Virus record (IMG/VR): IMGVR_UViG_3300017605_000956
Span: 1-64,000 of that record
DNA: 64,000 bases
Direction: 5' to 3' (one strand)
Origin: a virus
Part shown: positions 25,019 through 53,790 of the stretch, piece by piece
Layout of the letters: each line of letters starts with the position of its first letter
Numbering within the stretch: position 1 is the first letter of the stretch
Notes under the pieces: model-generated
Seen by the model: the letters and a program-made list of their open reading frames with translations, nothing else
What the model was told of the DNA's origin: nothing
Databases searched by the model: none
Translations under genes and position numbers: made by a program

Positions 25019-25728
25019 TCCCGATGCGATGCTGTATCTGTGGGGAAGCCGAACGGCTCCCCGGCACCGTCGTCTGCAAGAACTGCAAGGCGGAGATCGT
25101 GCTGACCGAGGGCCAGGCGGGCCTCAAAGCCATCGAGGCGCTCCACGAGCTGCCGTCGCATACGACGGTCGCGATCGGGTCACAGCCAGGTGGCCCGATG
25201 CTCGCGAAGGCGATCAAGTGCGAGAGCTGCGGGAAGTCGGAGGTGTACAACCCTCAGAAGCGCAAGGCCTCGTACTTCTGCGATCTCTGCGGCAAGCAGC
25301 TCTGCACCGCGTGCGCCGCCTACTGCAACCACAAGGACTGGAACTATCAGGCGAAGATCGTCTGCAAGCTCTGCCGCGCCGAGACGTCGCTGACCGGGCA
25401 GCCCGTCGAAGAAGTCGAGGGCTCGCTCCCCGGCCAGGGCGACGAGGTGAAGCGTGTGCCGAAGCCCCACTGCGGTCGGGCGACGTGCGTGGAGGACCCG
25501 GAAATGACCGCGCACCCGTGCCCGACTCCAGGCTGCGACCACAAGCCCTTTTGCGAGTGCAAGTGTCCGAAGTGCCGCGAGGCTGTTGCGTCGGGATTCG
25601 TGGAGCCCATGTTCGGCAAGATGCCGCCCGACCCGGATCCGGAGCCCCCGAAGCCGCCGCCGGCACCGGACGATGAAGACCTCGAAGACGAGATGGAAGC
25701 CCATCGTCGGGAGGCGGAGCAGGCATGA
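25015..25728 (+). CDS. Multi-zinc-ribbon protein with CxxCxAExxLT knuckles
   Basis: 237 residues with at least 20 cysteines. C-C-I-C-G-E-A, V-C-K-N-C-K-A-E-I-V-L-T-E, C-E-S-C-G, F-C-D-L-C-G-K-Q-L-C-T-A-C, V-C-K-L-C-R-A-E-T-S-L-T-G, then C-P-T-P-G-C and C-E-C-K-C-P-K-C; Pro/Asp/Glu tail. The motif C-x2-C-x-A-E-x-x-L-T occurs twice here and again at 31350, 31930 and 32247. ATGA overlap with the VWA gene puts it in the MoxR module. Likely zinc-dependent protein-protein contact. Confidence 0.75.
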   Translation: MIPMRCCICGEAERLPGTVVCKNCKAEIVLTEGQAGLKAIEALHELPSHTTVAIGSQPGGPMLAKAIKCESCGKSEVYNPQKRKASYFCDLCGKQLCTACAAYCNHKDWNYQAKIVCKLCRAETSLTGQPVEEVEGSLPGQGDEVKRVPKPHCGRATCVEDPEMTAHPCPTPGCDHKPFCECKCPKCREAVASGFVEPMFGKMPPDPDPEPPKPPPAPDDEDLEDEMEAHRREAEQA

Positions 25729-26045
25729 TCCTCAGAACGAAGTGGGCCGCCGCTTACGAGGCGGTGAAAGAGCGGATCGAGAAGACCAGACCGAAGAACG
25801 TGGTCATCTTCGAGCTTGTCTGCAAGGGGCTCTATCCGCCCGACGTGCGGATGAAGGACGACGCCGACAAATGCTCGGCATGCCGCGTGTCGTGGTACAG
25901 CTTCGAGCCCGCTTTCGGACACGCGAACGGGCTCCCGCACTTCGTCGCCTGGTGCCTTGAGCACCCGACCGAAGTGCGGGAGCGGTTCCCGGAGGCGGTC
26001 ATGGTGTTGACCGAGACGACGCTCATCAAGAAGGAGGCCGTATGA
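25725..26045 (+). CDS. Small helical protein with C-x2-C and AExxLT-like end
   Basis: 106 residues. K-C-S-A-C-R in the middle, H-F-V-A-W-C near residue 80, and the C-terminus VMVLTETTLIKKEAV, a variant of the A-E-x-x-L-T tail of the following genes. ATGA overlaps at both ends. Not recognised. Confidence 0.7.
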   Translation: MILRTKWAAAYEAVKERIEKTRPKNVVIFELVCKGLYPPDVRMKDDADKCSACRVSWYSFEPAFGHANGLPHFVAWCLEHPTEVRERFPEAVMVLTETTLIKKEAV

Positions 26046-26785
26046 AGACGATCGCGATGATCATGCTTCCTCTGGCTCTTCAGGGATACGAAGAGTCGTC
26101 CCAGAAGCTCGCGGACGATCTGGCGAAAGCCGATACCGCCCCGGCCAAGGTCGCTGTGGCGGACGAGTTCGTGAAGCTCGCGAAGAAGTTCCCGAAGCAG
26201 CGCCAGGAGGCGATCGACGGGGCCTCAAGCGCGTACCGCGCAGCGTGGCCGGATCTGGACCCGGTGTGGAAGATGAAGACGCGGGAGCGCCTGGCTCGGC
26301 TCTACGTCCCTCTCGCTCCGGTACCGGAGAAGAAGCTGCCTGTCGCTGGCTGGGGTGCGATCAGTGGCGCGAAGGCGGACTCGTTGCGCGTCCACTCAGG
26401 ATCCGCATCGCTCCACCTGAAGATCGCGAGGAAGGATGGTGGGCTGGCCGACATGGGCGGCACCGACTTCTTCGAGGTGAAGCCGGGCAAGGAGCTCGAG
26501 CTCTCCGCCTGGGTGCTCACCGATGGGACGGATGGGCTCGACGACAAGTTCGGGTTCGTCCTCTACGATGCTGCGGGCAAGTCGCTCGTGACGAAGGAAC
26601 TCGTCGCGCCGAAGGACATTCCGGCCTGGACGCGGCTGTCTGATCGGTTCGAGGTTCCTGCCGGCGCCGTGAAGGCGAAGATCGGCATCCTCGTGTCGTC
26701 GAAGGGCGGCGATCTCTGGTGGGACGACTTCTCCGTCAAGATCGACGGCAAAGAGCAGCTCCGGAATGGGGGCTTCGAGAAATGA
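26042..26785 (+). CDS. Exported CBM-like (jelly-roll) protein
   Basis: 247 residues. A short hydrophobic N-terminus (MKTIAMIMLPLALQG) could be a signal peptide; then a helical segment (20-95); then a beta-sandwich with SGSASLHLKI, LELSAWVLTD, FGFVLYDAAGKSL, AKIGILVSSKGGDLWWDDFSV and RNGGF, typical of family 4/9-like carbohydrate-binding modules. No catalytic domain. It may bind host glycans. Confidence 0.7.
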   Translation: MKTIAMIMLPLALQGYEESSQKLADDLAKADTAPAKVAVADEFVKLAKKFPKQRQEAIDGASSAYRAAWPDLDPVWKMKTRERLARLYVPLAPVPEKKLPVAGWGAISGAKADSLRVHSGSASLHLKIARKDGGLADMGGTDFFEVKPGKELELSAWVLTDGTDGLDDKFGFVLYDAAGKSLVTKELVAPKDIPAWTRLSDRFEVPAGAVKAKIGILVSSKGGDLWWDDFSVKIDGKEQLRNGGFEK

Positions 26786-26991
26786 GCAGGAAAGAAGACC
26801 CTAACCAGTACTGGTTCTGGCTCCAGCCCCTTCCCCCGTTCGAGGTACGGTACGCCCCGAACTGGGAGGGCCGGGGTCGCGGCTTCGTCGGCCCCTTCAC
26901 GTTCCGCGCTTGCGCGGAACGTGAGAGGACCGATCGGCTTCTCGCTGGGGCGCCCCTGCGACTGATCGGGCCAAAGAGAAAGGAGCAATAG
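26782..26991 (+). CDS. Small aromatic-rich protein containing a hairpin insertion
   Basis: 69 residues. The first 35 are Trp/Phe/Pro-rich (NQYWFWLQPLPPF). The coding sequence then contains a 13-bp perfect inverted repeat (26897-26924) translated as TFRACAER, unlike its surroundings. Starts in an ATGA overlap. Function unknown. Confidence 0.6.
   Translation: MSRKEDPNQYWFWLQPLPPFEVRYAPNWEGRGRGFVGPFTFRACAERERTDRLLAGAPLRLIGPKRKEQ
26897..26924. repeat. 13-bp perfect hairpin inside a gene, loop TT
   Basis: TCACGTTCCGCGC (26897-26909) and GCGCGGAACGTGA (26912-26924) within the 26782 coding sequence. Confidence 0.75.
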
Positions 26992-26992
26992 C

Positions 26993-27661
26993 ATGGCCGC
27001 GAAACCGCTGGTCAAGCCGAAGCACAAGGTGCTGTCGGTGCCGATCGGGATGGTGAACTACAACATCCCGAGCCCCGAGGCGGCGAAGAAGCGCAACGCC
27101 CCCGAGGAGACCGTCAAGTTTCTCTCCCGCGCGACGTGGAGCATCCCCGGAGCGATGCGCCGCGTGTCGATCCCTTGGGATGGCAGCTTCTACATCTACG
27201 CGATGGTGAACGACGCGGAGATCAAGAAGATCCGGGACGAGTGGAACGAGGAGAAGGGCATCCGGTTCCACGTCGTCGAGGACTGGACCTCGAAGAACCC
27301 GGAGGAGACCGCCGAGATCGTTCGGGGCTGTATCGCCCGCAGCCTGGGCGACATCATCGGCTCGAAGGGCGAGGAGCCCGGGGACGAGCCCAGCGGCCTC
27401 CGTGGGTCGCTCGCGAAGCTCTCGAAGCGGTACGAGGAGCTGGACTCGACGGACGCCGATGGCCTCATCGTCGACCGCATCCAGGACGCGAAGAAGAAGC
27501 TGGAGGACGCCATGGTCGTCGCCGCTTCCTTCGCTCTCACCGAGGACTACGAGGAGCTGCGGAAGACGGTTGTCACGACGATCGAGGCGGAGCTGGAACT
27601 GGCCCGCATCGAAGTCGGCAAGGTGGCCCTCTCGCGCATGAAGGCAGCCGGGGTGATCTAG
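26993..27661 (+). CDS. Hypothetical protein, helical C-terminus
   Basis: 222 residues. N-terminal mixed domain (LSVPIGMVNYNIPSPEAA, WDGSFYIYAMV) and a C-terminal bundle of charged helices (about 125-222). Shine-Dalgarno AAAGGAG. Followed by a 13-bp hairpin. Not recognised. Confidence 0.75.
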   Translation: MAAKPLVKPKHKVLSVPIGMVNYNIPSPEAAKKRNAPEETVKFLSRATWSIPGAMRRVSIPWDGSFYIYAMVNDAEIKKIRDEWNEEKGIRFHVVEDWTSKNPEETAEIVRGCIARSLGDIIGSKGEEPGDEPSGLRGSLAKLSKRYEELDSTDADGLIVDRIQDAKKKLEDAMVVAASFALTEDYEELRKTVVTTIEAELELARIEVGKVALSRMKAAGVI

Positions 27662-27771: not shown

Positions 27772-28131
27772 ATGACCACGATGCTCGGCACGTTTGGGGT
27801 AGCCGAAGAGGAGATCGGGAGATTCAACCGGACGCTCCCGCCTCAGACCAAGGTGAAGTACGACGCCCGGTGGGAGCTGGGGCTCGAAGTCGTGCGGTGG
27901 TTCCACTACCGCTACAACGTCGACCACACGTTCATCGGCCGGATCAACTCGGTGGAGGAGCTGCGGAAGAACATGGTCCCGCGGTACCAGGCCTACTTCA
28001 TGTCGAGAGGCGTCCCGAAGAAGATGTTCCCGGCCCTCGACACGATCCTCATTGAGCCGCGGATCCAGGAGTTCTGCGAGATGTTCAAGGACGTCCTGGC
28101 GGAGATCGAACTTCTCCGGGAGGCACAATGA
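27772..28131 (+). CDS. Helical protein with AExxL end
   Basis: 119 residues. Aromatic helix RWFHYRYNVDHTF, and an end M-F-K-D-V-L-A-E-I-E-L-L-R. ATG 27772 chosen over 27766 because GGAGG ends 6 bases before it. Overlaps the next gene by ATGA. A member of the AExxL-tailed set. Confidence 0.75.
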   Translation: MTTMLGTFGVAEEEIGRFNRTLPPQTKVKYDARWELGLEVVRWFHYRYNVDHTFIGRINSVEELRKNMVPRYQAYFMSRGVPKKMFPALDTILIEPRIQEFCEMFKDVLAEIELLREAQ

Positions 28132-28683: not shown

Positions 28684-28947
28684 ATGTCGCAGGTGAAGAT
28701 CAACGGGTCGAAGCTGAGAGAGGTTCGGATGGGGAAACGCATGACGACCAAGGAGCTCGCGGAGCGGTCGGGTGTGTCCCCCCGGACGATCGACCGCATC
28801 GAATCCGGGGCGCTGAAGGAGGGCGTGAGGGAAGGAACCCTCTTCGCCATCACGAAGGCGCTCGAGGTCGAGCTGGACGTTCTGATCGAGTCCGCGCCGA
28901 TTCCCGCGGAAGTCGGAGAGAAGAGTGAAGACAAGAAAACCGCGTAA
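28684..28947 (+). CDS. Cro/CI-type HTH transcriptional regulator
   Basis: 87 residues. LREVRMGKRMTTKELAERSG followed by VSPRTIDRIESG is a standard HTH_3 domain (residues about 10-45), with a following helix TLFAITKALEVELDVL. Only clear transcription factor in the window. Direct repeats upstream suggest autoregulation. The end overlaps the next gene by 23 bases. Confidence 0.9.
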   Translation: MSQVKINGSKLREVRMGKRMTTKELAERSGVSPRTIDRIESGALKEGVREGTLFAITKALEVELDVLIESAPIPAEVGEKSEDKKTA

Positions 28948-29449
28948 CGCCGCTCTTGAATTCGCCAAGGGCTTCACGGTCCTCGTGGCGCGGGAGGCGC
29001 TGCGGCAGGGCCGCAAGAGAGTCCTGAACCCGGCGAAGTTCGAGAAGTGGGCGCGCAGCGCGATCCGGTCGGGCGGTGGGGACCCCGACCGGATCGGGGA
29101 GGCCGTCGGAAGGCGGCTTCACTGGATGGTATTCCCTCAGAAGGCGAAGTGGCAGCAGGACGTGGAGTACTGCATCCGTCGCGGGCGTTCGTTCGCCCGC
29201 CGGCATAAGGTGCTGATTGCCGAGCAGGTGCTGACGGGAGACGCGGAGAGGACCCAACTTGAGATGGCAGCGGAAGAGATGGTCCGCATCCTTGGGCCGA
29301 AGAAGGTCTTGGACCTTCTCGGCAAAGGGAAAGAGAGTAGGGCGTGCGTAAGTCGAAGTCGGAAGCGTTCGAGGATCTCGCGGCGCCGCTTGGCGAGTTC
29401 GTGTTCGAGCTGCGGGCGTCGTGGGGGACGAAAGCGATCGGCACGGTGA
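28925..29449 (+). CDS. Helical protein with internal AExxLT; no stop before the next gene
   Basis: 174 residues as read. The genuine part is about 138 residues: basic helical N-terminus, then HKVLIAEQVLTGDAE and VRILGPKKVLDLLG. From 29344 on it runs in another frame through the next gene, giving an Arg/Ser-rich tail (SRSRKRSRISRRR). A TAG lies one frame away at 29338-29340, just before the next GTG; a one-base indel or frameshift would restore a normal end. GTG start. Confidence 0.6.
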   Translation: MKTRKPRNAALEFAKGFTVLVAREALRQGRKRVLNPAKFEKWARSAIRSGGGDPDRIGEAVGRRLHWMVFPQKAKWQQDVEYCIRRGRSFARRHKVLIAEQVLTGDAERTQLEMAAEEMVRILGPKKVLDLLGKGKESRACVSRSRKRSRISRRRLASSCSSCGRRGGRKRSAR

Positions 29450-29664
29450 GGGACCTGTCGTGGGGGCTGAGGAATGGTCTTCGCCTCGTCGTGGTGTCAC
29501 CGGAGCCGGAGCTGGCCCTGGCGTTCATGATGACGGCGGTGGTCTTGAACGTGTCGGCTGACAAGCTCGACCGGCCGGATCCGATCGTTGAGCGGTACGC
29601 GCAGGACTTTATCGAGAAGCATCGGAGAGAATTTGCGGAGGCGATCCTGACGTGGCAGGCATAA
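29344..29664 (+). CDS. AExxLT-tailed helical protein
   Basis: 106 residues, helical. The last 25 residues read as helix then R-R-E-F-A-E-A-I-L-T-W-Q-A. GTG start, overlapped by the upstream frame. No domain recognised. Confidence 0.7.
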   Translation: MRKSKSEAFEDLAAPLGEFVFELRASWGTKAIGTVRDLSWGLRNGLRLVVVSPEPELALAFMMTAVVLNVSADKLDRPDPIVERYAQDFIEKHRREFAEAILTWQA

Positions 29665-30134
29665 GCAAAATGAATGGGAAGCCGCTGATCATCGAGGGCT
29701 TTTGCGATTTCGACCAGCCGCTTCGGCGAGTCGAGATCGGGAAGCACACGACGATCGAGGCGTTCGAGCGGTCGAAGAAGCGCGCCCAGTCCGGGGGCGA
29801 GTCGACCTATGGCTGGGTCTGGGCGGAGTTCCCTGATCCGCAGAGCGTCAACCCCATTCCGATGCGGCCGTGGAAGATGCACGAGGTCATCGTGGGAAGC
29901 CACCAGGCGGGCTGGCTCGCGGCGAGGGATCGCGCCCATGCGGAGCGTCCCGGCGTGTGCTGGTGGACGGCCACGCCATCCTGCTGCTCGAAGCTCGTCG
30001 CCGTTCCGCTCGGGGAGCATCAGAAGTCGGTGCGGCATTTCTTCTACACCGCCATGGAGTTCCAAGAGCTGACGGTGAGGCTGTGGCCCTGGATGAAGCC
30101 TTTGATCGCGGAGGAGGTCTTGTGCGAAAAGTAG
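29652..30134 (+). CDS. Hypothetical protein with AExxL end
   Basis: 160 residues. N-terminal part looks alpha/beta (GKPLIIEGFCDFDQP, VWAEFPDP), with a Cys-rich middle (VCWWTATPSCCSK), and ends MKPLIAEEVLCEK. GTG 29652 gives a 13-base overlap and has GGAGG 10 bases upstream; ATG 29670 is the alternative. Not recognised. Confidence 0.65.
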   Translation: MAGISKMNGKPLIIEGFCDFDQPLRRVEIGKHTTIEAFERSKKRAQSGGESTYGWVWAEFPDPQSVNPIPMRPWKMHEVIVGSHQAGWLAARDRAHAERPGVCWWTATPSCCSKLVAVPLGEHQKSVRHFFYTAMEFQELTVRLWPWMKPLIAEEVLCEK

Positions 30135-30505
30135 AGCCTCAGATCCAGCTCGCCAATTACTACCTCGCGCTGTGCTACTCGCTGTGGGCGAGGTACGAGT
30201 GGCTCGGGATCAACCTGAACTACGCGGGCATCCAGAGGGTCATGGAGCGTTTGGCGCTGGGGATACCGCTCCGGTGGCAACGTGATGGGGAAGCGCCGAA
30301 GGACATGGAAGAGCGGCTCGCGCAACATCTCACCTGGCTTGTGGTGTCGCGCGGCCGAAAGGTCGAGGACAGCGTCGTGAAGGACCTGCGCGTCGAAGCT
30401 GCGGCGTTCGTCGCGAAGCATCGAGAGCTGTTCGCGGAGATCAAGCTCGCCGGCGCGAGCAAAGACCTGAACAAAGAATTGGCGGAGACGGGGAGCAGGG
30501 TATGA
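30122..30505 (+). CDS. AExxL helical protein
   Basis: 127 residues. Aromatic helix YYLALCYSLWARYEW, then charged helices and A-K-H-R-E-L-F-A-E-I-K-L-A-G, followed by 18 more residues. GTG start with GGAGGTC directly upstream; ATGA overlap at the end. Confidence 0.7.
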   Translation: MRKVEPQIQLANYYLALCYSLWARYEWLGINLNYAGIQRVMERLALGIPLRWQRDGEAPKDMEERLAQHLTWLVVSRGRKVEDSVVKDLRVEAAAFVAKHRELFAEIKLAGASKDLNKELAETGSRV

Positions 30506-30831
30506 GCAGGATGACGCGGATCCAGGTGATCGCGATCCTCGAGAAGAGGATCAAGGACTTCGTCGAGTCCGCTACCAACGAGAAGATGTGGCCTCCGTTG
30601 TCGCTGACTTCGGGCCAGCTCTCGAATCAGGAAGCGATGATCGGGCTGATCATGATGAGGCTGTCGAAGCCCCGGTTCCTGAGAGAGCATTTCACGGATC
30701 AGCACGTCCCGCAACACTGCAACCTGTGTCAGACGTTCATCTCGAACTACCGGTATGAGTTCGAGGGCAAGGCCAGAGAGTTTCTGAGCACGAACCGTGA
30801 GCTCTTCGCGGAGCTCAACCTGTTGGGCTAA
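30502..30831 (+). CDS. AExxL-tailed helical protein with C-x2-C
   Basis: 109 residues. Q-H-C-N-L-C-Q-T between helices; ends S-T-N-R-E-L-F-A-E-L-N-L-L-G. Both a zinc-knuckle-like pair and the shared tail occur in one protein. Confidence 0.7.
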   Translation: MSRMTRIQVIAILEKRIKDFVESATNEKMWPPLSLTSGQLSNQEAMIGLIMMRLSKPRFLREHFTDQHVPQHCNLCQTFISNYRYEFEGKAREFLSTNRELFAELNLLG

Positions 30832-30853: not shown

Positions 30854-31357
30854 ATGAGAGAGATGGCAGAGCCGAAGTGTCCGAAGGGGTGCCGGGCGCC
30901 CGTTGCGCGCCTGGCGGGGACGGATGGCTACAAGCGATACCAATGCGGAAACATGGACTGCCTCGAGACGTGGGATGTTCCCATCGAGAAGAGACGGTCA
31001 GATACGCCGGAGCCCGAAGCTCCGGAGACTCAGGAGGACGACGTGGCGAAGCCCAAGCTGACGTGCCAGTACAACTGCGGGCACAAACCCTTCTCGTCGG
31101 AGAAGTGGAAGCTGAAGCACGAGGAGGCTTGCGCGAAGGAGAAGGACGGCTCCGTCGAAGAGAGCCCGGATCTCCCCCACACGCCGGCGACGGAGACGGC
31201 GAGGAGCGCCATGGGCTCGGTGATCGACTCCCTCAGGAACAAGCGCGAGTCGATGATCCGGGACAACGAGGAGATCCAGAAGATCATCGCGGAGCACCCC
31301 GACATCAGGAAGATCGACGCCGCGATCAAGCTGCTGGAGTCGGTTCAGGATGTGTAG
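30854..31357 (+). CDS. Two-zinc-finger protein with C-terminal coiled coil
   Basis: 167 residues. Finger 1: C-P-K-G-C ... Y-Q-C-G-N-M-D-C (about 9-35); linker; finger 2: C-Q-Y-N-C ... H-E-E-A-C (about 72-92); then a charged helix (RNKRESMIRDNEEIQKII). ATG 30854 or 30863. Stop overlaps the WGR gene. Nucleic-acid or protein binding is plausible. Confidence 0.7.
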   Translation: MREMAEPKCPKGCRAPVARLAGTDGYKRYQCGNMDCLETWDVPIEKRRSDTPEPEAPETQEDDVAKPKLTCQYNCGHKPFSSEKWKLKHEEACAKEKDGSVEESPDLPHTPATETARSAMGSVIDSLRNKRESMIRDNEEIQKIIAEHPDIRKIDAAIKLLESVQDV

Positions 31358-31640
31358 GCTCTGCGACGCCGAGTGCGCGCTGACCGGCGAGATGGAGCGG
31401 GTGATCCTCGAGAACACGAACCCGGGTCACAACAAGCAGTACACCGTCTTCATCGAGCTGGTCGAGGACAACGGCACCGGCAACGTCCGGGTCATGGGCC
31501 GCTGGGGACCTATTGGCGAGAAGTGGACGAGGTCCCAGGAAAAGGGTCGCTTCGTGGCGATCTCGAGTGCGCGGCAGGCGGTCTATGACCTGGTGCGAGA
31601 AAAAGAGGGCCGTGGCTACAAGAGGAGGATCTGTCCGTGA
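31350..31640 (+). CDS. Minimal WGR-domain protein with zinc knuckle
   Basis: 96 residues. The N-terminus C-R-L-C-D-A-E-C-A-L-T-G is the C-x2-C-x-A-E-x-x-L-T element; the rest is a WGR domain: YTVFIELVEDNGTGN, VRVMGRWGPIGEKW, then the basic FVAISSARQAVYDLVREKEGRGY. WGR domains bind DNA near breaks in PARP-type and bacterial proteins. Overlaps neighbours by 8 and 4 bases. Confidence 0.85.
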   Translation: MCRLCDAECALTGEMERVILENTNPGHNKQYTVFIELVEDNGTGNVRVMGRWGPIGEKWTRSQEKGRFVAISSARQAVYDLVREKEGRGYKRRICP

Positions 31641-31927
31641 AGCCGACGACCACGCGCACCCTCGCCTCCCGCTTCGTTCGGTTCTGCCTGGATGAGGCGG
31701 AGGCGAGGGGCGTTTGGCCCCGTGATCTGCGGTTGGCTTTTGTCGAGCGGGAGTTCTCGGACTTCGGCTCGAAGAATTTGGTGAACCGGTTGACGAACGT
31801 CTACCGACGCATTCTTTACGGGAGGCCGGGAAGCCACCTCGAGGACGAGCTGAAGGTCCGGGTGGAGTTTTGGATGGGCCTCCCAGAGAACAGGGAGTTC
31901 TTGGCGGAGATCGTGCTGACGAGATAG
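31637..31927 (+). CDS. AExxLT-tailed helical protein (type member)
   Basis: 96 residues, all helical. ENREFLAEIVLTR is the last 13 residues; N-terminal helix SRFVRFCLDEAEARG resembles SRRLVHEANEYAKRVG of the 33154 protein. GTGA overlap with the WGR gene. Best example of the family. Confidence 0.75.
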   Translation: MKPTTTRTLASRFVRFCLDEAEARGVWPRDLRLAFVEREFSDFGSKNLVNRLTNVYRRILYGRPGSHLEDELKVRVEFWMGLPENREFLAEIVLTR

Positions 31928-31929: not shown

Positions 31930-32250
31930 ATGCCGAAAGAGAAGGCGACGCACACGAGGTTTCGGACCTACTGGTCGCTCTCGTCGACGGGCCAGCGGTC
32001 GACGTGCAGCGATTGCGGCCGGCGCGAGCTGCGGGTCGGGTACCAGTGCCGCGGCATGGACTACGGGCACGGCTTCTGCCAGCGGGTGCGCTGCTGGCTG
32101 TGTGCCGGGATCAAGAGAGTCGAGAAGAAGACGATGACCGATATGTGGACGCTCTGCCTCTACTTCGCGGTGATCGAGAACCAGCTCTGCAAGCCCTGTC
32201 GCGCGGAGAACGAGCTGCTTGGCGAGATAAAGGTCATGGTGTCCTCGTGA
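31930..32250 (+). CDS. Zinc-knuckle protein with CRAExxL
   Basis: 106 residues. T-C-S-D-C-G-R, Y-Q-C-R-G, R-C-W-L-C-A-G and, near the end, L-C-K-P-C-R-A-E-N-E-L-L-G-E. GTGA overlap with the next, related gene. Zinc binding likely, function unknown. Confidence 0.7.
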   Translation: MPKEKATHTRFRTYWSLSSTGQRSTCSDCGRRELRVGYQCRGMDYGHGFCQRVRCWLCAGIKRVEKKTMTDMWTLCLYFAVIENQLCKPCRAENELLGEIKVMVSS

Positions 32251-32621
32251 GCTGCGCTCTCTGTCACCGAGGGGTCGAGACGCTCGCGCTGAACATGAAC
32301 GACCTCTCGCGCGGACGCCAGCTTGCCGAGAAGCTCGGGGTGAAGTGGGGCGAGAGTGCAGCGGTCTGTATCTGCAAGCTATGTGTTGCGGAGTTTGAGT
32401 TTACGGGAGAATGGACCGTGATCTGCTCGGCTTGCAAGAAGGGGTTCGCCAAGGTGCCGCCGCTCTGCGATAGCTGCGGGCAGCCCACGTGCGAGGATTG
32501 CGCTGCGAAGGAGATACCGCCTGGTCGGTGGGAGATCAGGCACAGCGCGGTGCTGCGGGCCGGAGATCGAATCCGGATCTGCAAGAACTGTCGAGCGGAA
32601 CGAGTGCTTACGGAGGACTGA
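32247..32621 (+). CDS. Zinc-ribbon protein with two CxxCxAExxxT elements
   Basis: 124 residues. C-A-L-C at the start, C-K-L-C-V-A-E-F-E-F-T-G at about 48-59, C-S-A-C-K...C-D-S-C-G-Q-P-T-C-E-D-C-A treble-clef-like core, and the terminal C-K-N-C-R-A-E-R-V-L-T-E-D. GTG start (GTGA). Same family as 25015. Confidence 0.75.
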   Translation: MSCALCHRGVETLALNMNDLSRGRQLAEKLGVKWGESAAVCICKLCVAEFEFTGEWTVICSACKKGFAKVPPLCDSCGQPTCEDCAAKEIPPGRWEIRHSAVLRAGDRIRICKNCRAERVLTED

Positions 32622-33157
32622 TGGAGACCGCCGAGATTCAGATGTCGCCCAGGGCTGCACGTACCGAAGCCGAGAGGTATTCACGGTGCCGGGACCTGAC
32701 GAAGACCGACCGCCTGATCATGAAGGCGTACAAGTCGATCGCGCACGGGAGCCGGATCATCGACCTCAAGAAGACGATGGAGATTGCGGGCTTCGACGAC
32801 AACGGGCGGCCGCGGCTGGCGATCTGCTGCGCCAATGCGACGCGGGTCGACGTGCGCTGCTGGCCGGGGTCGACGGAGTTCAAGTGGAACCATCGGTACT
32901 ACGACCGGAGCTCGATGAGGATCGTGGGCTTTGGGAACAACAGGACCTCCACCGTCGATGGGTGGGCGACGACGCCGTACATCCCGCCGTACATCCGGCG
33001 CGCTCGGATGAGCCGGTACTTCGTGCTGTGGGAGGCGACGTGGCACAACGTTCCGGCGGGAGATCCCTACCTGCTGGAGCAGATCGACCAGAACCTCTTC
33101 CGCGTGGTCGCGGCGTGGGACATCACGCCGCTCGAGGCGGCGGTGCTGAGGCGATGA
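32621..33157 (+). CDS. Hypothetical protein
   Basis: 178 residues. Mixed fold: helical basic start, AICCANATRVDVRCWPG and RYFVLWEATWHNVP with several aromatic residues; ends EAAVLRR. Starts in a TGATG junction with the upstream gene. Not recognised. Confidence 0.7.
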   Translation: METAEIQMSPRAARTEAERYSRCRDLTKTDRLIMKAYKSIAHGSRIIDLKKTMEIAGFDDNGRPRLAICCANATRVDVRCWPGSTEFKWNHRYYDRSSMRIVGFGNNRTSTVDGWATTPYIPPYIRRARMSRYFVLWEATWHNVPAGDPYLLEQIDQNLFRVVAAWDITPLEAAVLRR

Positions 33158-33495
33158 GAAGAAGAACGATCAATCGGCCTCCGGTCCACACGTTCTCCCG
33201 CCGTCTCGTCCACGAGGCGAACGAGTACGCGAAGAGGGTGGGCCTGAAGCAGATCGACAAGGACCTGCATCTCCCGGCGTGGGAACAGCTCGAGGATATT
33301 ATGGCATTGGGCGACGCCTGGAAGGTGGCTGACGTGCTGGCTCTGCACTTCACGAAGGTCTACGATCCGACCGGGAAGGTGGAGCGGCACGTGGAGGTCA
33401 TGAGGAAGTTCGTGAGCGACAACAAGGAGCTGGTGGCCGAGGTCGTGTTGACCTATGTGCCTCGACCCAAGATCAAAGGGAGGAGATTTCCGTGA
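33154..33495 (+). CDS. AExxLT helical protein with basic extension
   Basis: 113 residues. Helices as in the 31637 protein, then D-N-K-E-L-V-A-E-V-V-L-T followed by a Lys/Arg/Pro extension (YVPRPKIKGRRFP). ATGA and GTGA overlaps. Confidence 0.75.
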   Translation: MRRRTINRPPVHTFSRRLVHEANEYAKRVGLKQIDKDLHLPAWEQLEDIMALGDAWKVADVLALHFTKVYDPTGKVERHVEVMRKFVSDNKELVAEVVLTYVPRPKIKGRRFP

Positions 33496-34270: not shown

Positions 34271-34720
34271 ATGGGGAAGTTCAAGGCGTCGTTCGAGGGG
34301 TACTCGAACGATCTGGTCATGATGGTCGGGATGTCGATGAACGCCTGCGTGCGGAAAATCTGCGAGGAGCAGAGCTGCAAGCCCGCGAAGTCGTCGTTCC
34401 TCGTGCCCGAGACGGCGAACCCCGAGTGGCTACGGAACAACATCGCCTGGCAGGTCGCCACGGCGATCTTCGCGAAGCCCACGGAGAAGCGCAACGTCAA
34501 CGAGCTGCACCGCAAGGTGCTCGAGGTCTACGCCGACGTGATCGAGGAGTGGATTCAGGAGAACAAGGCGAACCTGGCGGAGATCGGCTTCCTCTTCACG
34601 CCAGAGGACACCGTGATCCAGACCCAGTCGCCTCCGGTGCAGCACTTCGCCCCCGCGGCAGCGCCTGCGGCGCTGCCGCCGGGGATCAACGCCATCGTTT
34701 GCAGAAGGGGACGGAGATAG
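34271..34720 (+). CDS. Helical protein with internal LAExxF
   Basis: 149 residues. Helical first 105 residues ending E-N-K-A-N-L-A-E-I-G-F-L-F-T, a variant of the shared tail, then a Pro/Ala linker and a basic end. GGAGG upstream of the ATG. Confidence 0.7.
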   Translation: MGKFKASFEGYSNDLVMMVGMSMNACVRKICEEQSCKPAKSSFLVPETANPEWLRNNIAWQVATAIFAKPTEKRNVNELHRKVLEVYADVIEEWIQENKANLAEIGFLFTPEDTVIQTQSPPVQHFAPAAAPAALPPGINAIVCRRGRR

Positions 34721-36007: not shown

Positions 36008-36277
36008 ATGGACGCAATCACAGCATCTCAGTCTCCCGCTATCGACGGAGTGCTGCTCTTCGACCTGTTTTCGATCAGGACGAGCGAGCCGTTCCTGGTG
36101 ATGTACGGGATCTCCGCCGCCTTCGGGTACAAGCCCACCGCGGATCAGGTGAAGCTGATCCGGAAGAACATGGGCAACCGCGCCATCTTCGAGAAGTGGG
36201 AGAAGCTCGGCCAGGAGATGAAGGCCGGGACGCGCCCCTTCCCCGAGTGGCTGACGAAGGTGGAGGCGGTGCGATGA
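36008..36277 (+). CDS. Small hypothetical protein
   Basis: 89 residues. Predicted alpha/beta, ending in helices (GNRAIFEKWEKLGQEM). ATGA overlap with the next gene. Not recognised. Confidence 0.65.
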   Translation: MDAITASQSPAIDGVLLFDLFSIRTSEPFLVMYGISAAFGYKPTADQVKLIRKNMGNRAIFEKWEKLGQEMKAGTRPFPEWLTKVEAVR

Positions 36278-36543
36278 ACGGAAAACTGTTCCAGAACTTC
36301 TCGGGCGTCATCCCGCAGCACGCCCAGGTGAAGGGGTCGGGCAATACGATGTCGAACGCGACGTCGGACACGCCCTTCTTGACGCTCGGGCTCTACTCGG
36401 ATTCTGACGGCTCGGGGACCGTCCCGTGGCTGCTGTGCCTGCTCCAGGGCGGCCAGGTGGTCTCGGTTCGGGCGACTGACGTGTGCATCGAGATGACGGA
36501 TGAGATGAAAAAGTCGCTGGCCGAAGTGGTGCTGAAGTCATGA
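36274..36543 (+). CDS. AExxL-tailed small protein, paralogue of the next
   Basis: 89 residues. LCLLQGGQVVSVRATDV then M-K-K-S-L-A-E-V-V-L-K-S. Aligns with the following protein from LCL/VCL onward. Beta-rich body, helical tail. Confidence 0.7.
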   Translation: MNGKLFQNFSGVIPQHAQVKGSGNTMSNATSDTPFLTLGLYSDSDGSGTVPWLLCLLQGGQVVSVRATDVCIEMTDEMKKSLAEVVLKS

Positions 36544-36758
36544 CGTTCTCGAGGCCGCTTCCGGGGATCGTGAACATCAACAGGGAGCCTGAAGCCGTGG
36601 CCGTACTCGGGGTCGAGTCCGGGTCGAGCGGAGGCATCGCGATCGTGTGCCTCAACGGCAAGGGCCAGATATTCACGATGCCGCCCGGCTCGGTGAAGGT
36701 GCTGGTGGATAAAGAGCTCCGCGAGTGTATCGCGGAAGCAGAGTTGCAGAAACCCTAG
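36540..36758 (+). CDS. AExxL-tailed small protein, paralogue of the previous
   Basis: 72 residues. IVCLNGKGQIFTMPPGSV, then L-R-E-C-I-A-E-A-E-L-Q-K-P. ATGA overlap; tandem duplication with 36274. Followed by GGAGGAGG and the Sak4-like gene. Confidence 0.7.
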   Translation: MTFSRPLPGIVNINREPEAVAVLGVESGSSGGIAIVCLNGKGQIFTMPPGSVKVLVDKELRECIAEAELQKP

Positions 36759-40039: not shown

Positions 40040-41683
40040 ATGACCGAGGTCAAGGACGCAACCCCGCGAGAAGTGCTCGCGGAGGTCAACTTCGAGGAGA
40101 TCGAGCTCTCGAAGCTGATCGAGTCGCGGAGGAATCCGCGAAAGGCATTCGACGCGACGGCCATGAGGGGGCTGGTCGAGTCGATCAAGAGGTACGGGGT
40201 GCTCACGCCGCTGATCGTGAGGGCGGTGGGAAACGACGGGAAATTCGAGATCCTGGCTGGCGCCAGGCGCAGCAGGGCATCGAGAGAGGCGGGCCTCGAA
40301 AAGGTTCCGTGTCGCGTCATCGAGGCTGAGAACGATCTCGCCTTGGACGTGATCGTCGTCGAGAACCTCCAGCGGCAGAACGTCCACCCCCTCGAGGAGG
40401 CGGACAGCTTCGCTGAGATCCTCGAGCTCTCCGGTGGCGATCTCCATGGCCTGTGCAACAAGGTCGGCAAGGACAGGCCCTACGTCATGAAGCGACTGGC
40501 CCTCAACAAGCTGGTCGATTCGGGCAAGAAGATGTTCCTCCAGGGCAAGATGTCGGAGGGACACGCGATGCTGATCTCGCGGCTCACGCCCGAGGACCAG
40601 AAGGACGCGATGGAGTACCTCGAGAACGACGAGCCTTCGGTCACGATCATGCGGGAGTGGATTGAGTCGACGCTGATGCTCGACCTCGCGAAGGCGGGCT
40701 TCTCGAAGACGGATCCGGCGCTGGACAAGAAGGCCGGTCCCTGCACGACGTGCCCCAAGCGGACTGGCTGCTCGAAGGACCTCTTCGACGACATCAAGAG
40801 CGGGGACCGCTGCACCGATGTCGAGTGCTTCCAGGGCAAGATGCGGGCGCACATCACCCAGCTCGAGAACGCCCTCCGCGGGAAGGGCTACAAGGTGTAC
40901 GGCGTCTACGAGAGCTATCAGTCGAAGCCCGGGAAGGGCACGCTGGCATCGGGCCAGTGGGTCGAGATCAAGAAGAAGGACTTCTGCGACAACGCGGCGA
41001 AGATGATCATCCTCGACCAACCCCGTGCCGGCCACTACGTCGACGGATGCGCCAACCTGGAGAACTGCAAGATCCACGGGCGGACCGGGATGCACGGCTC
41101 GAACTCCACCATGCAGGAGCAGACGCGAAAGCAGGTCCTCGCCAACAAGATCGAGGCCGAGGTTCGCCTTCGGACCTTCAAGCTGATCTACGAGAAGCAG
41201 GAGAAGCTGACCGTCTCCGACAAGAGGCTGCTGGCCGAACACTGCTTCAGTCGCCTCTGGTTCGGAGCCAAGGTGCGGCTCTGCCGGGCGCTGGGCATCG
41301 AGCCCAAGGTGTCGAAGATCGGCGGCAAGGACTACGAGACGCCCTTCTCGAGAGTGGTGACCGAGGCGGTGAAGGAAGAGACGCTCGACAAGCTGCTCAT
41401 CTCTCTGGCGTGTGGCGGCGATCTCGACCCGAACTACCGGCACGCCGAGAACATCGACTTCTACGCCAACAAGCTCAAGCTGGACGTGAAGGCCATCGAG
41501 ACGGAGGTCAAAGCGTCCTTCGAGAAGAAGTCGAAGAAGATGCCCAAGGAGAAGCCCATCGAGGCTGAGGGCAAGAAGCCGAAGAAGGCCAAGGCGAAAT
41601 CTGTGGCGAAGGCCCAGACGAAGCCCATGGAGGTCGATCCCCTGGAGCACAGCGAGGGCATGGGGGATGACCTTCCGGAGTAG
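40040..41683 (+). CDS. ParB-like nuclease-domain protein
   Basis: 547 residues. RNPRKAFD, GARRSRASREAG (74-85) and VVENLQRQNVHPLEEA (106-121) are ParB boxes I-III; then a helical DNA-binding part (LCNKVGKDRPYVMKRLAL). A cysteine cluster C-T-T-C-P-K-R-T-G-C...R-C-T-D-V-E-C-F follows, as in other phage and plasmid ParB-like proteins, and a Lys-rich tail. Could bind the TGCACSTGCA repeats at 20-21 kb. No ParA seen. Confidence 0.85.
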   Translation: MTEVKDATPREVLAEVNFEEIELSKLIESRRNPRKAFDATAMRGLVESIKRYGVLTPLIVRAVGNDGKFEILAGARRSRASREAGLEKVPCRVIEAENDLALDVIVVENLQRQNVHPLEEADSFAEILELSGGDLHGLCNKVGKDRPYVMKRLALNKLVDSGKKMFLQGKMSEGHAMLISRLTPEDQKDAMEYLENDEPSVTIMREWIESTLMLDLAKAGFSKTDPALDKKAGPCTTCPKRTGCSKDLFDDIKSGDRCTDVECFQGKMRAHITQLENALRGKGYKVYGVYESYQSKPGKGTLASGQWVEIKKKDFCDNAAKMIILDQPRAGHYVDGCANLENCKIHGRTGMHGSNSTMQEQTRKQVLANKIEAEVRLRTFKLIYEKQEKLTVSDKRLLAEHCFSRLWFGAKVRLCRALGIEPKVSKIGGKDYETPFSRVVTEAVKEETLDKLLISLACGGDLDPNYRHAENIDFYANKLKLDVKAIETEVKASFEKKSKKMPKEKPIEAEGKKPKKAKAKSVAKAQTKPMEVDPLEHSEGMGDDLPE

Positions 41684-41782: not shown

Positions 41783-42307
41783 ATGAACGAGGACGAAAGG
41801 CACGAGGTGTTCAAGTGGCTCCTGAAGAAGAGCTTTTTCTACCAGGGGCTAGTTTGGTGTTACCTACGCGGAAATGATGTCCCAGCGATTCTCGGAAAGA
41901 TGCAGGTCTGGGAAAAGAACCCCGGCCGGAAGTTCTTCGACGAAGACGGCGGCGACATCATGGTGGGGGACCTGATCATCGAGGTGAAGAGCATCGGGCT
42001 TGAGTTCACCTGCGTAGACGACTACCCCTACGGAGACGTGGTCGTCGACAACATCGGGCAGCACGACGAGAAGGTTCGCAAGGGCTACTGCCCGAACATC
42101 TACGTCTTCGTGTCTCAGGTTACCGGCGCGATGATCTGGACCTCGGTGAAGGAGTGGAAGCACGAGTGGCAGAAGAAGGTAATTCCGCACAGGTGGACAA
42201 AGGAGATGAGGCACGTTTACACCTGTTGGAAAAGCCACTGCAATCCGATCAGGGCGCTGGTGAGTGACCTGAAAGACATCTTGGGAGATCAGGCGGTAGC
42301 AGGATGA
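41783..42307 (+). CDS. Predicted PD-(D/E)XK nuclease
   Basis: 174 residues (187 from GTG 41744). GGDIMVGDLIIEVKS gives D-x-n-E-V-K, the metal site of PD-(D/E)XK enzymes, followed by VVVDNIGQHDEKV and NIYVFVSQ strands. Family name uncertain; perhaps a structure-specific or nicking enzyme. Confidence 0.6.
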   Translation: MNEDERHEVFKWLLKKSFFYQGLVWCYLRGNDVPAILGKMQVWEKNPGRKFFDEDGGDIMVGDLIIEVKSIGLEFTCVDDYPYGDVVVDNIGQHDEKVRKGYCPNIYVFVSQVTGAMIWTSVKEWKHEWQKKVIPHRWTKEMRHVYTCWKSHCNPIRALVSDLKDILGDQAVAG

Positions 42308-42612
42308 ATGCGGCGTGGCTGGATGGCGAGTTCTCTCGCGGAGGGCCGGAATGGAAGCTGGTGATCCGGTGGACCCATTTCGTCGCGAGGAAGAAGCAGG
42401 GAATCACTTCCAGCGAGAGGCACACGTGGAACAAGGGCGTGGTCAACGTCTCGGTCAAGTTCATGGCGCAGGCAATCAAGAAGGGTGAGATCGTGCTCCT
42501 GCCCGAAGCGTTCGGGCGGGGCATGAGCACTTGGGAGCTGCTGAGGGCGTGGTGGCCGGAGTTCATGCAAACAGAAAAGGAGCTGATCGCAGAGCTGGTG
42601 TTGACGCGGTAG
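42304..42612 (+). CDS. AExxLT-tailed protein
   Basis: 102 residues. Unlike the helical members it begins strand-rich (WKLVIRWTHFVARKKQG, GVVNVSVKF), then helix and T-E-K-E-L-I-A-E-L-V-L-T-R, the same ending as the 31637 protein. ATGA overlap. Confidence 0.75.
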   Translation: MNAAWLDGEFSRGGPEWKLVIRWTHFVARKKQGITSSERHTWNKGVVNVSVKFMAQAIKKGEIVLLPEAFGRGMSTWELLRAWWPEFMQTEKELIAELVLTR

Positions 42613-43923: not shown

Positions 43924-44439
43924 ATGGGACTCGGTGCTATTTTCGTGGATGGCGGCAACGTCTCGTTCGCGCTGAAGAAGCGATCTCGGGACCAGGGCAC
44001 GCCGCGGCAGAAGCTCGAGTACGGCGAGCTGGTCAAGGCGCTCGAGGGGAAGCTGGGCGTCAGCCTGGCGTTCAAGGCATACTACACGGCGCATCACGAT
44101 CCGGCCCTCTTGGTGCATCGGGCCGGGTTCTACACGCATCTCCGGCTGAACGGCTGGTCGATCTTCGACACGCCCTCGAAGCTCTGTCCCGACGGCATCT
44201 GGAGGGACAAGGGCGTCGACATGGCGATCGGCCTGGACGCCTACGCGCTGGCCCTCAAGACGCAGATCGACACGCTGGTCCTCCTGTCCCATGACGAGGA
44301 CTTCGTCGAGCTGTTCAAGCGGCTGCCAGACGGCATGAGGGGCGTCTCCGTGGGCTTCAAGGATCGCACCGCGATGGCGATCCAGAAGGTCGCGACGGAG
44401 GTGATCTGGCTCGAGGAGCTGGCCGGGGTGATCCGGTGA
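43924..44439 (+). CDS. NYN-domain ribonuclease-like protein
   Basis: 171 residues. AIFVDGGNVSFAL (D9, N12), KGVDMAIGLDAYALAL and DTLVLLSHDEDFVELFKRL give the acidic residues of the PIN-like NYN fold (LabA group). Expected to cut RNA. Start set by GGAATGGAGG, 8 bases upstream. GTGA overlap next. Confidence 0.85.
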   Translation: MGLGAIFVDGGNVSFALKKRSRDQGTPRQKLEYGELVKALEGKLGVSLAFKAYYTAHHDPALLVHRAGFYTHLRLNGWSIFDTPSKLCPDGIWRDKGVDMAIGLDAYALALKTQIDTLVLLSHDEDFVELFKRLPDGMRGVSVGFKDRTAMAIQKVATEVIWLEELAGVIR

Positions 44440-44885
44440 ACAAAGGCGGTACCTGGCCTGAGACAAAGTACTGGCGCGAGGCGATGGAGGCTGCTCAGAA
44501 GAGGCTCGGCAAGGTCAACCTCTTCAACGGGACCAATGGGACCGGGAGCGGCTACTACGTGGCTCACGACTCACGGGCGATGTGCTGCTCGCAGTTCGTC
44601 CCGTCGGCCAGGAACTCTCAGGGGCCACGCAAGGTGAAGGAACACCTGAGGACCGCGGTCCATTTCAGGACGTGGTGCGTCGGGAATCGGGAGAAGGCCC
44701 TGGAGCTGTTCCCGGAAGTGAAGCCGCTGTTCGCGGAGTACGAGCTGACGAAGGACGCGATCCGTCCTGGCGTCTCGTCGACTACGTCGATCGAGATGGT
44801 CGGATCGAAGCTCACAATCGTCAGGACGACGGTCGATGCGTCGAAGGCGAAGTTCACGATCAGGGATGGAGGGAGGAAACCTTGA
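44436..44885 (+). CDS. Hypothetical protein with internal FAExxLT
   Basis: 149 residues. Cys-containing N-terminal half (AMCCSQF), then P-E-V-K-P-L-F-A-E-Y-E-L-T-K, and a beta-rich end (SIEMVGSKLTIVRTTV). Shares the motif but not at the end. Confidence 0.65.
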   Translation: MNKGGTWPETKYWREAMEAAQKRLGKVNLFNGTNGTGSGYYVAHDSRAMCCSQFVPSARNSQGPRKVKEHLRTAVHFRTWCVGNREKALELFPEVKPLFAEYELTKDAIRPGVSSTTSIEMVGSKLTIVRTTVDASKAKFTIRDGGRKP

Positions 44886-45277
44886 GTCGCAAGCGGAAGG
44901 AGGTGGTTGATCCGGATCTGGTGGAGGTGGCCCCAGGCCTTCAGCTCTGGGAGCTGGATCTCTACCGGAAGCTGATCATGTTCGGAGAATGGCACAACCT
45001 GGACTTTCTTTTTCCCCGCGCAGGTCCACTTGTGCCGACGCCGTTGTTCAACGTGCTCGTGAAAGCGGGGAGGAAGAAGGAGCCGATGTCGATCGACGAC
45101 GTGGAACTCTCGGAGGAGACGAAGGCGCTCCTCGAGCAGCGGGCAAAGGCCGGCTGCGTCTGCTGCCAGTACATCCTCGATGACTGGAAGGCGAACAACA
45201 AGCTGACCGACTACGGGAACTTCCCCGGAGAGGCGAAGCTGAACCACATCCAGGCTGAGAAGGATTGCCAGGTATGA
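44882..45277 (+). CDS. C-x2-C protein, CxxxILxD family A
   Basis: 131 residues. Ends L-S-E-E-T-K-A-L-L-E-Q...C-V-C-C-Q-Y-I-L-D-D-W...K-L-T-D-Y. Paralogous to the 46242 protein over the last 60 residues. TTG start inferred from the TTGA overlap. Confidence 0.65.
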   Translation: MSRKRKEVVDPDLVEVAPGLQLWELDLYRKLIMFGEWHNLDFLFPRAGPLVPTPLFNVLVKAGRKKEPMSIDDVELSEETKALLEQRAKAGCVCCQYILDDWKANNKLTDYGNFPGEAKLNHIQAEKDCQV

Positions 45278-46245: not shown

Positions 46246-46634
46246 TCCCGCAGAAGGAACCGCTCGGAAGTGAGAGCGGTCTCTTTCTGCCCGAAGATCA
46301 GAAGCGATCGTCGGGGCTGCCGCCGATGAAGCGTGTCAGGGTAAAGGTCTACTTCAAGAAGATGGAGAAGGTGATGGAAGGCGAAGAGATCGTGCTGTCT
46401 CCCGAGACGCAGGCGTACCTCGAGACGCAGCGGAACAAGTGTATGCTCTGCAAAATGATCCTCGAGGATCACGCCCAGCACGGGAAACTGACCGGGTACC
46501 CGAAGGAGATCGACGGGCGAGGGCAGTTCCCGGTCGAAGCGAAGATCCGGCACGTCCAGATCGAGAAGCTCCACGCGCCGGAGGTTCCGGCTGGGGCGCA
46601 GCCCCAGCCGGAAGGGGGAGCCGATGGGGAATAA
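46242..46634 (+). CDS. C-x2-C protein, CxxxILxD family B
   Basis: 130 residues. L-S-P-E-T-Q-A-Y-L-E-T...C-M-L-C-K-M-I-L-E-D...K-L-T-G-Y matches the 44882 protein. Its 3' end contains the 46585 hairpin, coding PAGAQPQPEGG. Zinc binding would require a partner because only two cysteines are present. Confidence 0.7.
   Translation: MIPQKEPLGSESGLFLPEDQKRSSGLPPMKRVRVKVYFKKMEKVMEGEEIVLSPETQAYLETQRNKCMLCKMILEDHAQHGKLTGYPKEIDGRGQFPVEAKIRHVQIEKLHAPEVPAGAQPQPEGGADGE
46585..46613. repeat. 13-bp perfect hairpin inside a gene, loop GCA
   Basis: TTCCGGCTGGGGC (46585-46597), GCA, GCCCCAGCCGGAA (46601-46613). Located just before the next ATG. Confidence 0.8.
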
Positions 46635-46884: not shown

Positions 46885-46885
46885 T

Positions 46886-51402: not shown

Positions 51403-51404
51403 CT

Positions 51405-52129: not shown

Positions 52130-52911
52130 GCGACAACATCGAGCTGGTCTTGGGGGACGGCATCCGCTGGCTCGAGCGCCAGTCGGCCAGCTCGCTCGAC
52201 GGGATCTTCACGGATCCGCCATGGGGCGCAGGCCCGGAGATCAAGGGCCAGGCCCAGTGGAAGGAGCTGATCTCGAAGATGTCGCGTGCCGCGTTTCGGG
52301 CGTTGAAGCCGAGCGGTCGGCTCCTGCTGTGGGTGGGGATCAACCGGATGGACGGGGCGATCCGTTCAGTGACGAAACGCCTGACCTTCTCTGGAGCGAT
52401 CGTTATTCGCACCATCCCGCCCACGTGCCGCGGCCGCTGGGTGCTCGGTGGCGACCACGTTCTGATCTACGGCCGCTACGGGTACGCGAGGCCTGTCGCG
52501 AAGATGGCTGCCGGGGAGATCACGCTGCCGTCGCTCTACGGGAACTTCACGAGCTCCGGCGTCCGGACGGGACCGGACACCGATCACCCATGCGCGCGGG
52601 ACCTGCGGCCGGCGACGATCATCGCGCGGCAGTGGTTCCGAGCTGGGGAGCGAGTCGCTGACCCGTTCGGCGGATCCGCCGTGCTGGCGTGCGCCCTCGC
52701 GGACGTCGGAGCGAAAGCCACGTCGATCGAGATCGACCCGAAGATGCACAAGACCGCGGTGAACCGTGTGGCTCACCGCACGCCGAATCTGTTTAGGGAG
52801 AGGGACCATGGCCCACAAGATCAGGACCATCTGTTCGATCTGCGACAAGGAGCTCGCACCCAGGAACGGCGCCCCCGGCGATCCCGCGCACATCCGGTAC
52901 GTGGACGATGA
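52126..52911 (+). CDS. DNA N4/N6 methyltransferase, runs into the next gene
   Basis: Core about 226 residues. D30-P-P-W33 catalytic motif IV, GRLLLWVG, and VADPFGGSAVLACALAD (motif I placed C-terminally, as in beta-class enzymes). The last about 35 residues (after 52808) overlap the next gene out of frame. A TAG at 52792-52794 is one frame away. Methylates C-N4 or A-N6; DPPW occurs in both. Confidence 0.8.
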   Translation: MSDNIELVLGDGIRWLERQSASSLDGIFTDPPWGAGPEIKGQAQWKELISKMSRAAFRALKPSGRLLLWVGINRMDGAIRSVTKRLTFSGAIVIRTIPPTCRGRWVLGGDHVLIYGRYGYARPVAKMAAGEITLPSLYGNFTSSGVRTGPDTDHPCARDLRPATIIARQWFRAGERVADPFGGSAVLACALADVGAKATSIEIDPKMHKTAVNRVAHRTPNLFRERDHGPQDQDHLFDLRQGARTQERRPRRSRAHPVRGR

Positions 52912-53065
52912 GCGCCACAGCGGGTGCAGCCGGCCGTCCTCGATCGGGAAGAAGCCGATCCGGGTCGGCGGCTACGACCCGGAGAAGAAGCGCGACACGA
53001 CCGGCGAGTCGGTGCGCGCCCTGGATGGGACCGGTCTGACGGAGCGCCCGGCTCCGGTCGTCTAA
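52808..53065 (+). CDS. Small C-x2-C hypothetical protein
   Basis: 85 residues. T-I-C-S-I-C-D-K near the N-terminus, H-S-G-C-S further on, then unstructured Lys/Pro. ATG after GGGAGAGGG. Confidence 0.65.
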   Translation: MAHKIRTICSICDKELAPRNGAPGDPAHIRYVDDERHSGCSRPSSIGKKPIRVGGYDPEKKRDTTGESVRALDGTGLTERPAPVV

Positions 53066-53081
53066 CTTTTCTGGCCTGGTA

Positions 53082-53112
53082 TCGGGGGGTGGGGCGGAGC
53101 CCCACCCCCCGA
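53082..53112. repeat. 14-bp perfect hairpin, loop GGA
   Basis: TCGGGGGGTGGGGC (53082-53095), GGA, exact complement 53099-53112, in the gap between 52808 and 53132 genes. Confidence 0.8.
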
Positions 53113-53131
53113 CCGAAGACGCGAGGAGAAT

Positions 53132-53539
53132 ATGGATCTGCCCTGCCCGTACTGCCGGGGGTCCGGCAAGTTTCGTCACGAGCGTCCGAAGAACGTCTCG
53201 GACAAGTGGTGGTTCGACATGGTCGGTCAGAGGATGGCTTGCCCCCTGTGCAAGGGCGCGGGCAAGATCGTCCGAGGCGCGGACTCGCTGGTCGTGGACA
53301 CCGGCCTGATCTTCATCAAGAACCTCGACCGCAGGGTTCTGGTGGGATGCCCGGACCAGACCTGCACCCTCTGGGTCGATGCGACGGACGCCTTCGGCCG
53401 GCGCGAGATGAGCGCACCCACCGGGCGCGCGAAGACCGTGGCCGACACGCCCCAGGCCGACTTCGCGGTGAAGTGCAAGAACGGCCACGACGTCGTTCTC
53501 TCGATGACTCCGGGAGCTGCTCGGTGGAAGCCCCATTGA
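53132..53539 (+). CDS. DnaJ-type CxxCxGxG protein
   Basis: 135 residues. C-P-Y-C-R-G-S-G and C-P-L-C-K-G-A-G at 5-12 and about 37-44, the DnaJ zinc-finger repeat; then a beta domain (FIKNLDRRVLVGC) and K-C-K-N-G-H-D-V. May help folding or protein contacts. Confidence 0.75.
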   Translation: MDLPCPYCRGSGKFRHERPKNVSDKWWFDMVGQRMACPLCKGAGKIVRGADSLVVDTGLIFIKNLDRRVLVGCPDQTCTLWVDATDAFGRREMSAPTGRAKTVADTPQADFAVKCKNGHDVVLSMTPGAARWKPH

Positions 53540-53790
53540 TCGGCATCGCGAAGTCGCTGGTGAAGCACCTCGAGGAGGCTGGGGTCGAGGTCACTCCCGA
53601 TCTCGACTTCGCGGTCGAGGCCTGCAGGGGCTCCCTCAAGAAGGGGGTCCGGGAGTTCATGGACCTGGCCGAGAAGACGTTCACGAATCGGATCAGGCCG
53701 AGGCGGAAGGCGCTGGGCGTCTTCAGGAAGTTCCGGGAGGACGTGAAGGTGTGGCTGGCGGAATTGGTGCTCACGGAGAGAGAGGTCTGA
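53536..53790 (+). CDS. AExxLT-tailed helical protein
   Basis: 84 residues. IAKSLVKHLEEAGVEV resembles the opening helix of 31637/33154; ends V-K-V-W-L-A-E-L-V-L-T-E-R-E-V. TTG start by TTGA overlap; GTG 53524 possible. Confidence 0.7.
   Translation: MIGIAKSLVKHLEEAGVEVTPDLDFAVEACRGSLKKGVREFMDLAEKTFTNRIRPRRKALGVFRKFREDVKVWLAELVLTEREV

Follow-up and report, generated by a model that had tools for sequence, protein, structure and literature searches.

A short AExxLT motif recurring among small proteins of a phage replication block: a candidate docking helix

The replication block and its motif

The IMG/VR virus record IMGVR_UViG_3300017605_000956 comprises 78,478 bp, of which bases 1-64,000 form the stretch analyzed here (the window). 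A custom gene caller yielded 138 densely packed genes, every one on the plus strand and with predicted starts; gene numbers follow the caller's list, and two open reading frames, gA (28925) and gB (32247), were added manually. The replication block, at 25-54 kb, encodes PD-(D/E)XK nuclease, AAA_24 ATPase, DUF669, DUF3987, NYN, and RNase H-like proteins, together with a ParB-like protein (40040-41683) and a cytosine methyltransferase. Within this block a short motif built around the residues AExxLT recurs in small proteins: 20 copies in 18 carriers.

The fuller motif reads [C/N/H]-[K/R]-x-[L/C]-x-A-E-x-x-L-T. Numbered from its alanine, the fixed positions are K or R at -4 (20 of 20 copies), A at 0, E at +1, L or F at +4, and, mostly, T at +5. 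Residues A, E, and L were fixed through the selection of copies, whereas the basic residue at -4 was not a selection criterion; it is also present in all 11 strict AExxLT matches. An earlier note, made from the DNA sequence alone, had listed 14 copies. All 14 were confirmed, in frame and in plausible, closely packed plus-strand genes, but the array is larger: six further copies, each immediately following a CxxC pair whose cysteines occupy -5 and -2, had been overlooked, as had the invariant K/R at -4. The copies fall into two classes. In the 14 helical-class copies, position -1 is hydrophobic, position -2 mostly so, and F occupies -9 in eight, likewise missed at first. The CxxC class resides in the Cys-rich proteins g43, g57, and gB, plus g55, where the copy precedes a WGR domain.

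The motif is far more frequent than amino acid composition would predict, as judged by the shuffled-protein test that the earlier note had proposed. AExxLT occurs 11 times in the proteins, against 0.59 expected from 2000 per-protein shuffles (maximum 4), and AE..L lies within the last 25 residues of 15 proteins, against 1.4 expected (shuffle maximum 7). The 11 occurrences are in plus-strand frames, with none in any minus-strand frame. As a guard against hindsight, all patterns with four fixed residues spanning no more than nine positions were counted across the whole proteome. K...AE..L ranked first, in 14 proteins, ahead of A..VLT (11) and AE..LT (10); the basic -4 position was therefore recovered independently. 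Pattern maxima reached 7-9 in twelve shuffled proteomes and 6-7 in four control phages, whose proteomes are smaller.

The two classes recognize one another. A matrix trained on the helical class places CxxC copies at ranks 1, 2, 3, and 5 of all the remaining proteins; the CxxC-trained matrix in turn ranks helical copies 1-3. Upstream of about -10, column conservation is at background. Masking the motif (-10 to +6) removes nearly all similarity among the carriers in all-against-all comparison, and what remains is weak (best carrier pair g43-gB, E 0.04). The motif is also confined: all 18 carriers lie inside the replication block (25.0-53.8 kb), and the blocks on either side of it lack them (hypergeometric P 4e-8; 1.6e-7 when restricted to proteins of at most 240 residues).

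The carriers and their bodies

The carrier bodies are of several kinds, among them helical proteins, zinc-type fingers rich in Cys, and one WGR protein. All are encoded on the plus strand, and the position given with each motif below is that of its Ala codon. The earlier note placed the motif at or very near the C-terminus. This holds for 9 of the 14 helical copies, which end 1-4 residues before the stop; the other five have tails of 13-70 residues. Only g55 carries an N-terminal copy.

The CxxC class begins with g43 (25015-25728), which has two copies, CKNCKAEIVLT (25090) and CKLCRAETSLT (25378), the second of which aligns with gB and g57. In g55 (31350-31640), CRLCDAECALT (31368) is followed by the WGR domain (PF05406, E 1.1e-7). 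Protein g57 (31930-32250) contains CKPCRAENELL (32203), and gB (32247-32621) contains both CKLCVAEFEFT (32388) and CKNCRAERVLT (32595), the latter two residues from its end. The eight Cys of gB form four CxxC pairs (CSAC, CDSC, CEDC, and CKNC), with the motif after the last one; g43 is similar, and g57 is less complete. This arrangement resembles the FYVE domain (PF01363), although the gB match (E 0.0012, score 19.4) is under the curated cut-off of 27.8. FYVE domains have a basic patch of the RRHHCR type; such a patch is absent from the gB, g43, and g57 sequences.

Helical-class copies that end close to the stop codon are found in g50 (29344-29664; HRREFAEAILT, 29635), three residues from its end; in g51 (29670-30134; MKPLIAEEVLC, 30108) and g66 (36540-36758; LRECIAEAELQ, 36732), two residues; and in g99 (53536-53790; VKVWLAELVLT, 53758), four residues. 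A single residue follows the motif in g53 (30502-30831; NRELFAELNLL, 30808), g56 (31637-31927; NREFLAEIVLT, 31904), g65 (36274-36543; MKKSLAEVVLK, 36520), and g74 (42304-42612; EKELIAELVLT, 42589). The copy in g47 (27772-28131; FKDVLAEIELL, 28099) is near the C-terminus. Further copies are those of g52 (30122-30505; HRELFAEIKLA, 30434), g59 (33154-33495; NKELVAEVVLT, 33436), and g77 (44436-44885; VKPLFAEYELT, 44733), which has a 44-residue tail. The copy in g62 (34271-34720; NKANLAEIGFL, 34577), with a 41-residue tail, is weak: its leave-one-out score, 9.6, is close to noise. Protein g44 (25725-26045) contains a degenerate candidate, AVMVLT at 25995 (within RFPEAVMVLTE, about 25983-26015), and resembles g77 around the motif (phmmer E 0.002, unmasked).

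The remaining carrier, gA (28925-29449; HKVLIAEQVLT, 29219), overlaps g50 by 105 nt, and its final 35 or so codons appear to be non-coding. An out-of-frame TAG lies just ahead of the g50 start (window 29320-29350). The overrun into g50 and this TAG make a frameshift or assembly error possible.

An AlphaFold2 model of g56, from an alignment of 12 window proteins, is a bundle of helices, the last of which holds the motif (pLDDT 71). On a helical wheel, the shared residues K-4, A0, L+4, E+1, and T+5 span 320-140 degrees, and the hydrophobic residues at -1, -2, and +2 (or Cys at -5 and -2) occupy 160-260 degrees, the side presumed to face the body. Structure searches with the g56 model found no fold relative below E 1. 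Profile searches against the PDB gave a weak zinc-finger match (E 0.0045) and otherwise noise, and those helical carriers that were scanned against PHROGs, Pfam, and PADLOC gave no match below E about 0.03.

Surroundings and relatives

PHROGs and Pfam scans of larger or structural-region proteins recognized neither a terminase nor a portal or major capsid protein. The virus appears to be far removed from described phages. The left block encodes a retroviral or gag-type aspartyl protease-like protein (window 9076-9492; PF13975, E 4e-8) close to an M48 peptidase (window 7952-8824; E 5e-30). At window 9832-11828 lie several small proteins, basic and Cys-containing, whose tails are similar (SKPGLQGRR, SRKPGLNGRKRR, and LEGRRRKKRR); they are apparently local paralogues. 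Within the replication block, g78 (44882-45277) and g82 (46326-46634) are alike around CxLCKxILED...KLTxY...FPxEAKxxHxQxEK, and look homologous.

Presumed virion-block proteins have a recurrent short motif of their own, [G/E/D]LGxI (for example RGLGKI, KGLGEI, and RGLGRI), located at window 786-1469, 12995-14628, and 60665-61258, and at record 72492-76308. It was observed 11 times against 2.5 expected (shuffle maximum 8), and GLG.I, in seven proteins, is among the top patterns of the four-residue scan. It may mark a site of processing or assembly. Protein g132 (L001; record 74767-76308) has many GVSAYDLAGLREDDAAVRM repeats.

Searches for a second genome with the array of AExxLT copies were negative throughout. 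In IMG/VR no relative with the array was found: g75 and g108 yielded unconfirmed pattern matches only; the g41 ATPase had no match; and two AExxLT DNA patterns and a CxxCxAExxLT pattern gave scattered single matches only. A tblastn search with 17 joined proteins (the carriers minus gA and g55, plus g44) against the 50,697 phage records of INPHARED returned no match even at E 1. A pattern scan of prokaryote genomes found at least 119 stretches, some of them presumably HemB-like, with no array among the matches listed.

A docking helix and its rivals

How might one short stretch come to be shared by so many proteins? The explanation favored here, held with middling confidence, is that the motif acts as a docking helix by which diverse small proteins are recruited to a single partner during the replication phase. 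Some 18 small non-virion proteins would bind the same partner through a short, probably helical segment. That partner would most likely be a single hub, encoded by phage or host, used in replication or takeover. The side formed by K(-4), A(0), E(+1), L(+4), and T(+5) presumably points away from the carrier to contact the partner, with the opposite side toward the carrier, and the variable bodies would contribute different activities. A docking tag was among the meanings offered in the earlier note, and it stays the best reading because the constant stretch is short, occurs on several body types, and places its most conserved positions on one side of a helix. The location of the carriers in the replication block supports a non-virion use.

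Literature searches on shared C-terminal phage motifs gave no precedent beyond the analogues named here. Nearest in function, by analogy, are the poxvirus ankyrin/F-box (PRANC) proteins, which bind Skp1 (PMC4353913): an array of proteins in which the front varies while a constant helical module at the C-terminus binds one hub. Those fronts are ankyrin repeats and the hub is the eukaryotic SCF, whereas here the bodies differ and the motif spans only about 10-15 residues; neither ankyrin nor PRANC was matched in Pfam in ten carriers (E up to 1), or in g55 and gB (E up to 0.1). In chimallivirus nucleus import, the PicA pathway is reported to use a species-specific surface region of a cargo protein (PMC11087766). 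Several phage proteins are likewise routed by one phage factor, but through a cargo surface region rather than a short shared tail, and the record here is 78 kb. Nearest in principle is bacteriophage T4, in which several small proteins with unrelated bodies (ipI-ipIII) have one short capsid targeting sequence (PMC3012670): one phage, many bodies, and a common tag.

The T4 precedent raises the alternative of a virion sorting or maturation tag, possibly cleaved after Glu; a sorting or packaging signal was among the meanings entertained in the earlier note. The T4 genes ipII and ipIII begin MKTYQEFIAEA, and gp22 (LIAEA) and gp67 (LFAEA) have similar segments near the N-terminus, all resembling the helical F/L-I/F-A-E; the T4 internal proteins, moreover, are diverse, with the tag alone in common (PMC3012670). 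The resemblance ends at F/L-I-A-E. Scored with the helical-class matrix, the T4 internal proteins reach no more than 0.5-4.5 bits, and K-4, L+4, and T+5 are missing from them. (The T4 scaffold gp22 segment AKEWLAENKLA scores 14.4, so single matches mean little; the signal is the number of copies.) The T4 tag is N-terminal and directs packaging into the scaffold core, whereas the copies here, in about 18 proteins, are mostly C-terminal and usually continue with I, L, V, or E rather than a small residue; the CxxC class has K, R, D, or V ahead of AE. No gp21-like protease or scaffold core was matched among the proteins scanned against PHROGs and Pfam, which cover part of the gene set; the aspartyl protease-like gene and the M48 peptidase of the left block are present. 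With no copy outside the replication block, a packaging role is improbable. Less probable still is a DNA or RNA element, such as a promoter, ribosome-binding, or recombination site, translated by chance as AExxLT. Many copies do lie at gene ends, and their Leu codons are mildly biased to CTG or TTG (14 of 18; p 0.0008 versus the genome and about 0.02-0.03 versus the same genes, uncorrected). However, the A, E, K, and T codons agree with genome usage, bearing out the earlier claim of selection on protein rather than DNA, and the spacing between the motif and the next start ranges between 14 and 453 nt. These two observations make a nucleic-acid signal unlikely, and on them the promoter or ribosome-binding version was rejected. 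The motif is, further, always in frame, occurs also within genes, and has its K/R at -4 encoded by AAG, AAA, CGN, and AGG.

The strongest rival, itself rather doubtful, invokes ancient paralogy and needs no common partner: a single ancestral gene, or a small number of them, would have duplicated and diverged rapidly, leaving the motif as the last recognizable part of a shared fold core. The ancestor was perhaps a zinc finger ending CKxCRAExxLTG. In keeping with this, gB can be aligned across some 60 residues with g43 (38% identity) and with g57 (26%); the pairs g44-g77, g51-g77, g52-gA, and g65-g66 give phmmer E values of 0.0009-0.011 with the motif included; and several helical members (g44 and g53) retain stray CxxC pairs. 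Against it stand the near-complete loss of similarity on masking, the abrupt end of conservation at -10, and the appearance of the same residues on different bodies at N-terminal, internal, and C-terminal positions (g55, g43, and g56). The related idea of a common degenerate helical domain, the third meaning in the earlier note, fails for the copies directly after zinc-type CxxC pairs and before the WGR domain. Some ancient paralogy is nonetheless likely within the subgroups g43/gB/g57, g44/g51/g77, and g65/g66, and fold relics may be part of the truth alongside docking. The carriers might instead bind each other or themselves through the motif, forming a mixed complex. A short amphipathic segment with fixed basic and acidic positions could self-pair, and at 27.7-36.8 kb many carrier genes are neighbors; but nothing specific prefers self-assembly over a separate partner, and this version has only a slim chance of being right.

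Several points weigh against a docking helix. Its shared partner is postulated. Some subgroups are paralogous, and some of the sharing could stem from common descent. The g56 model is of moderate quality (pLDDT 71 overall, 66-69 over the last 30 residues; pTM 0.53), the model of the zinc protein gB is too poor for use (pLDDT 44), and in the CxxC class the motif segment could be a strand instead of a helix. Finally, no second genome with the motif under selection was found in IMG/VR, INPHARED, or the prokaryote matches listed.

The docking explanation can be extended, tentatively and by analogy, to a docking code of the phage, in which 18 or more small proteins, with bodies of several types, would share one helical plug, [K/R]xxxAExxLT, for a single hub, as a bacterial-virus counterpart of the poxvirus F-box adaptor arrays. 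Phages carry many small orphan proteins, and a plug common to 18 of them would, if true, reduce 18 unknowns to one question. It would also mean that phages can give varied small proteins a single recruitment tag for purposes other than virion packaging.

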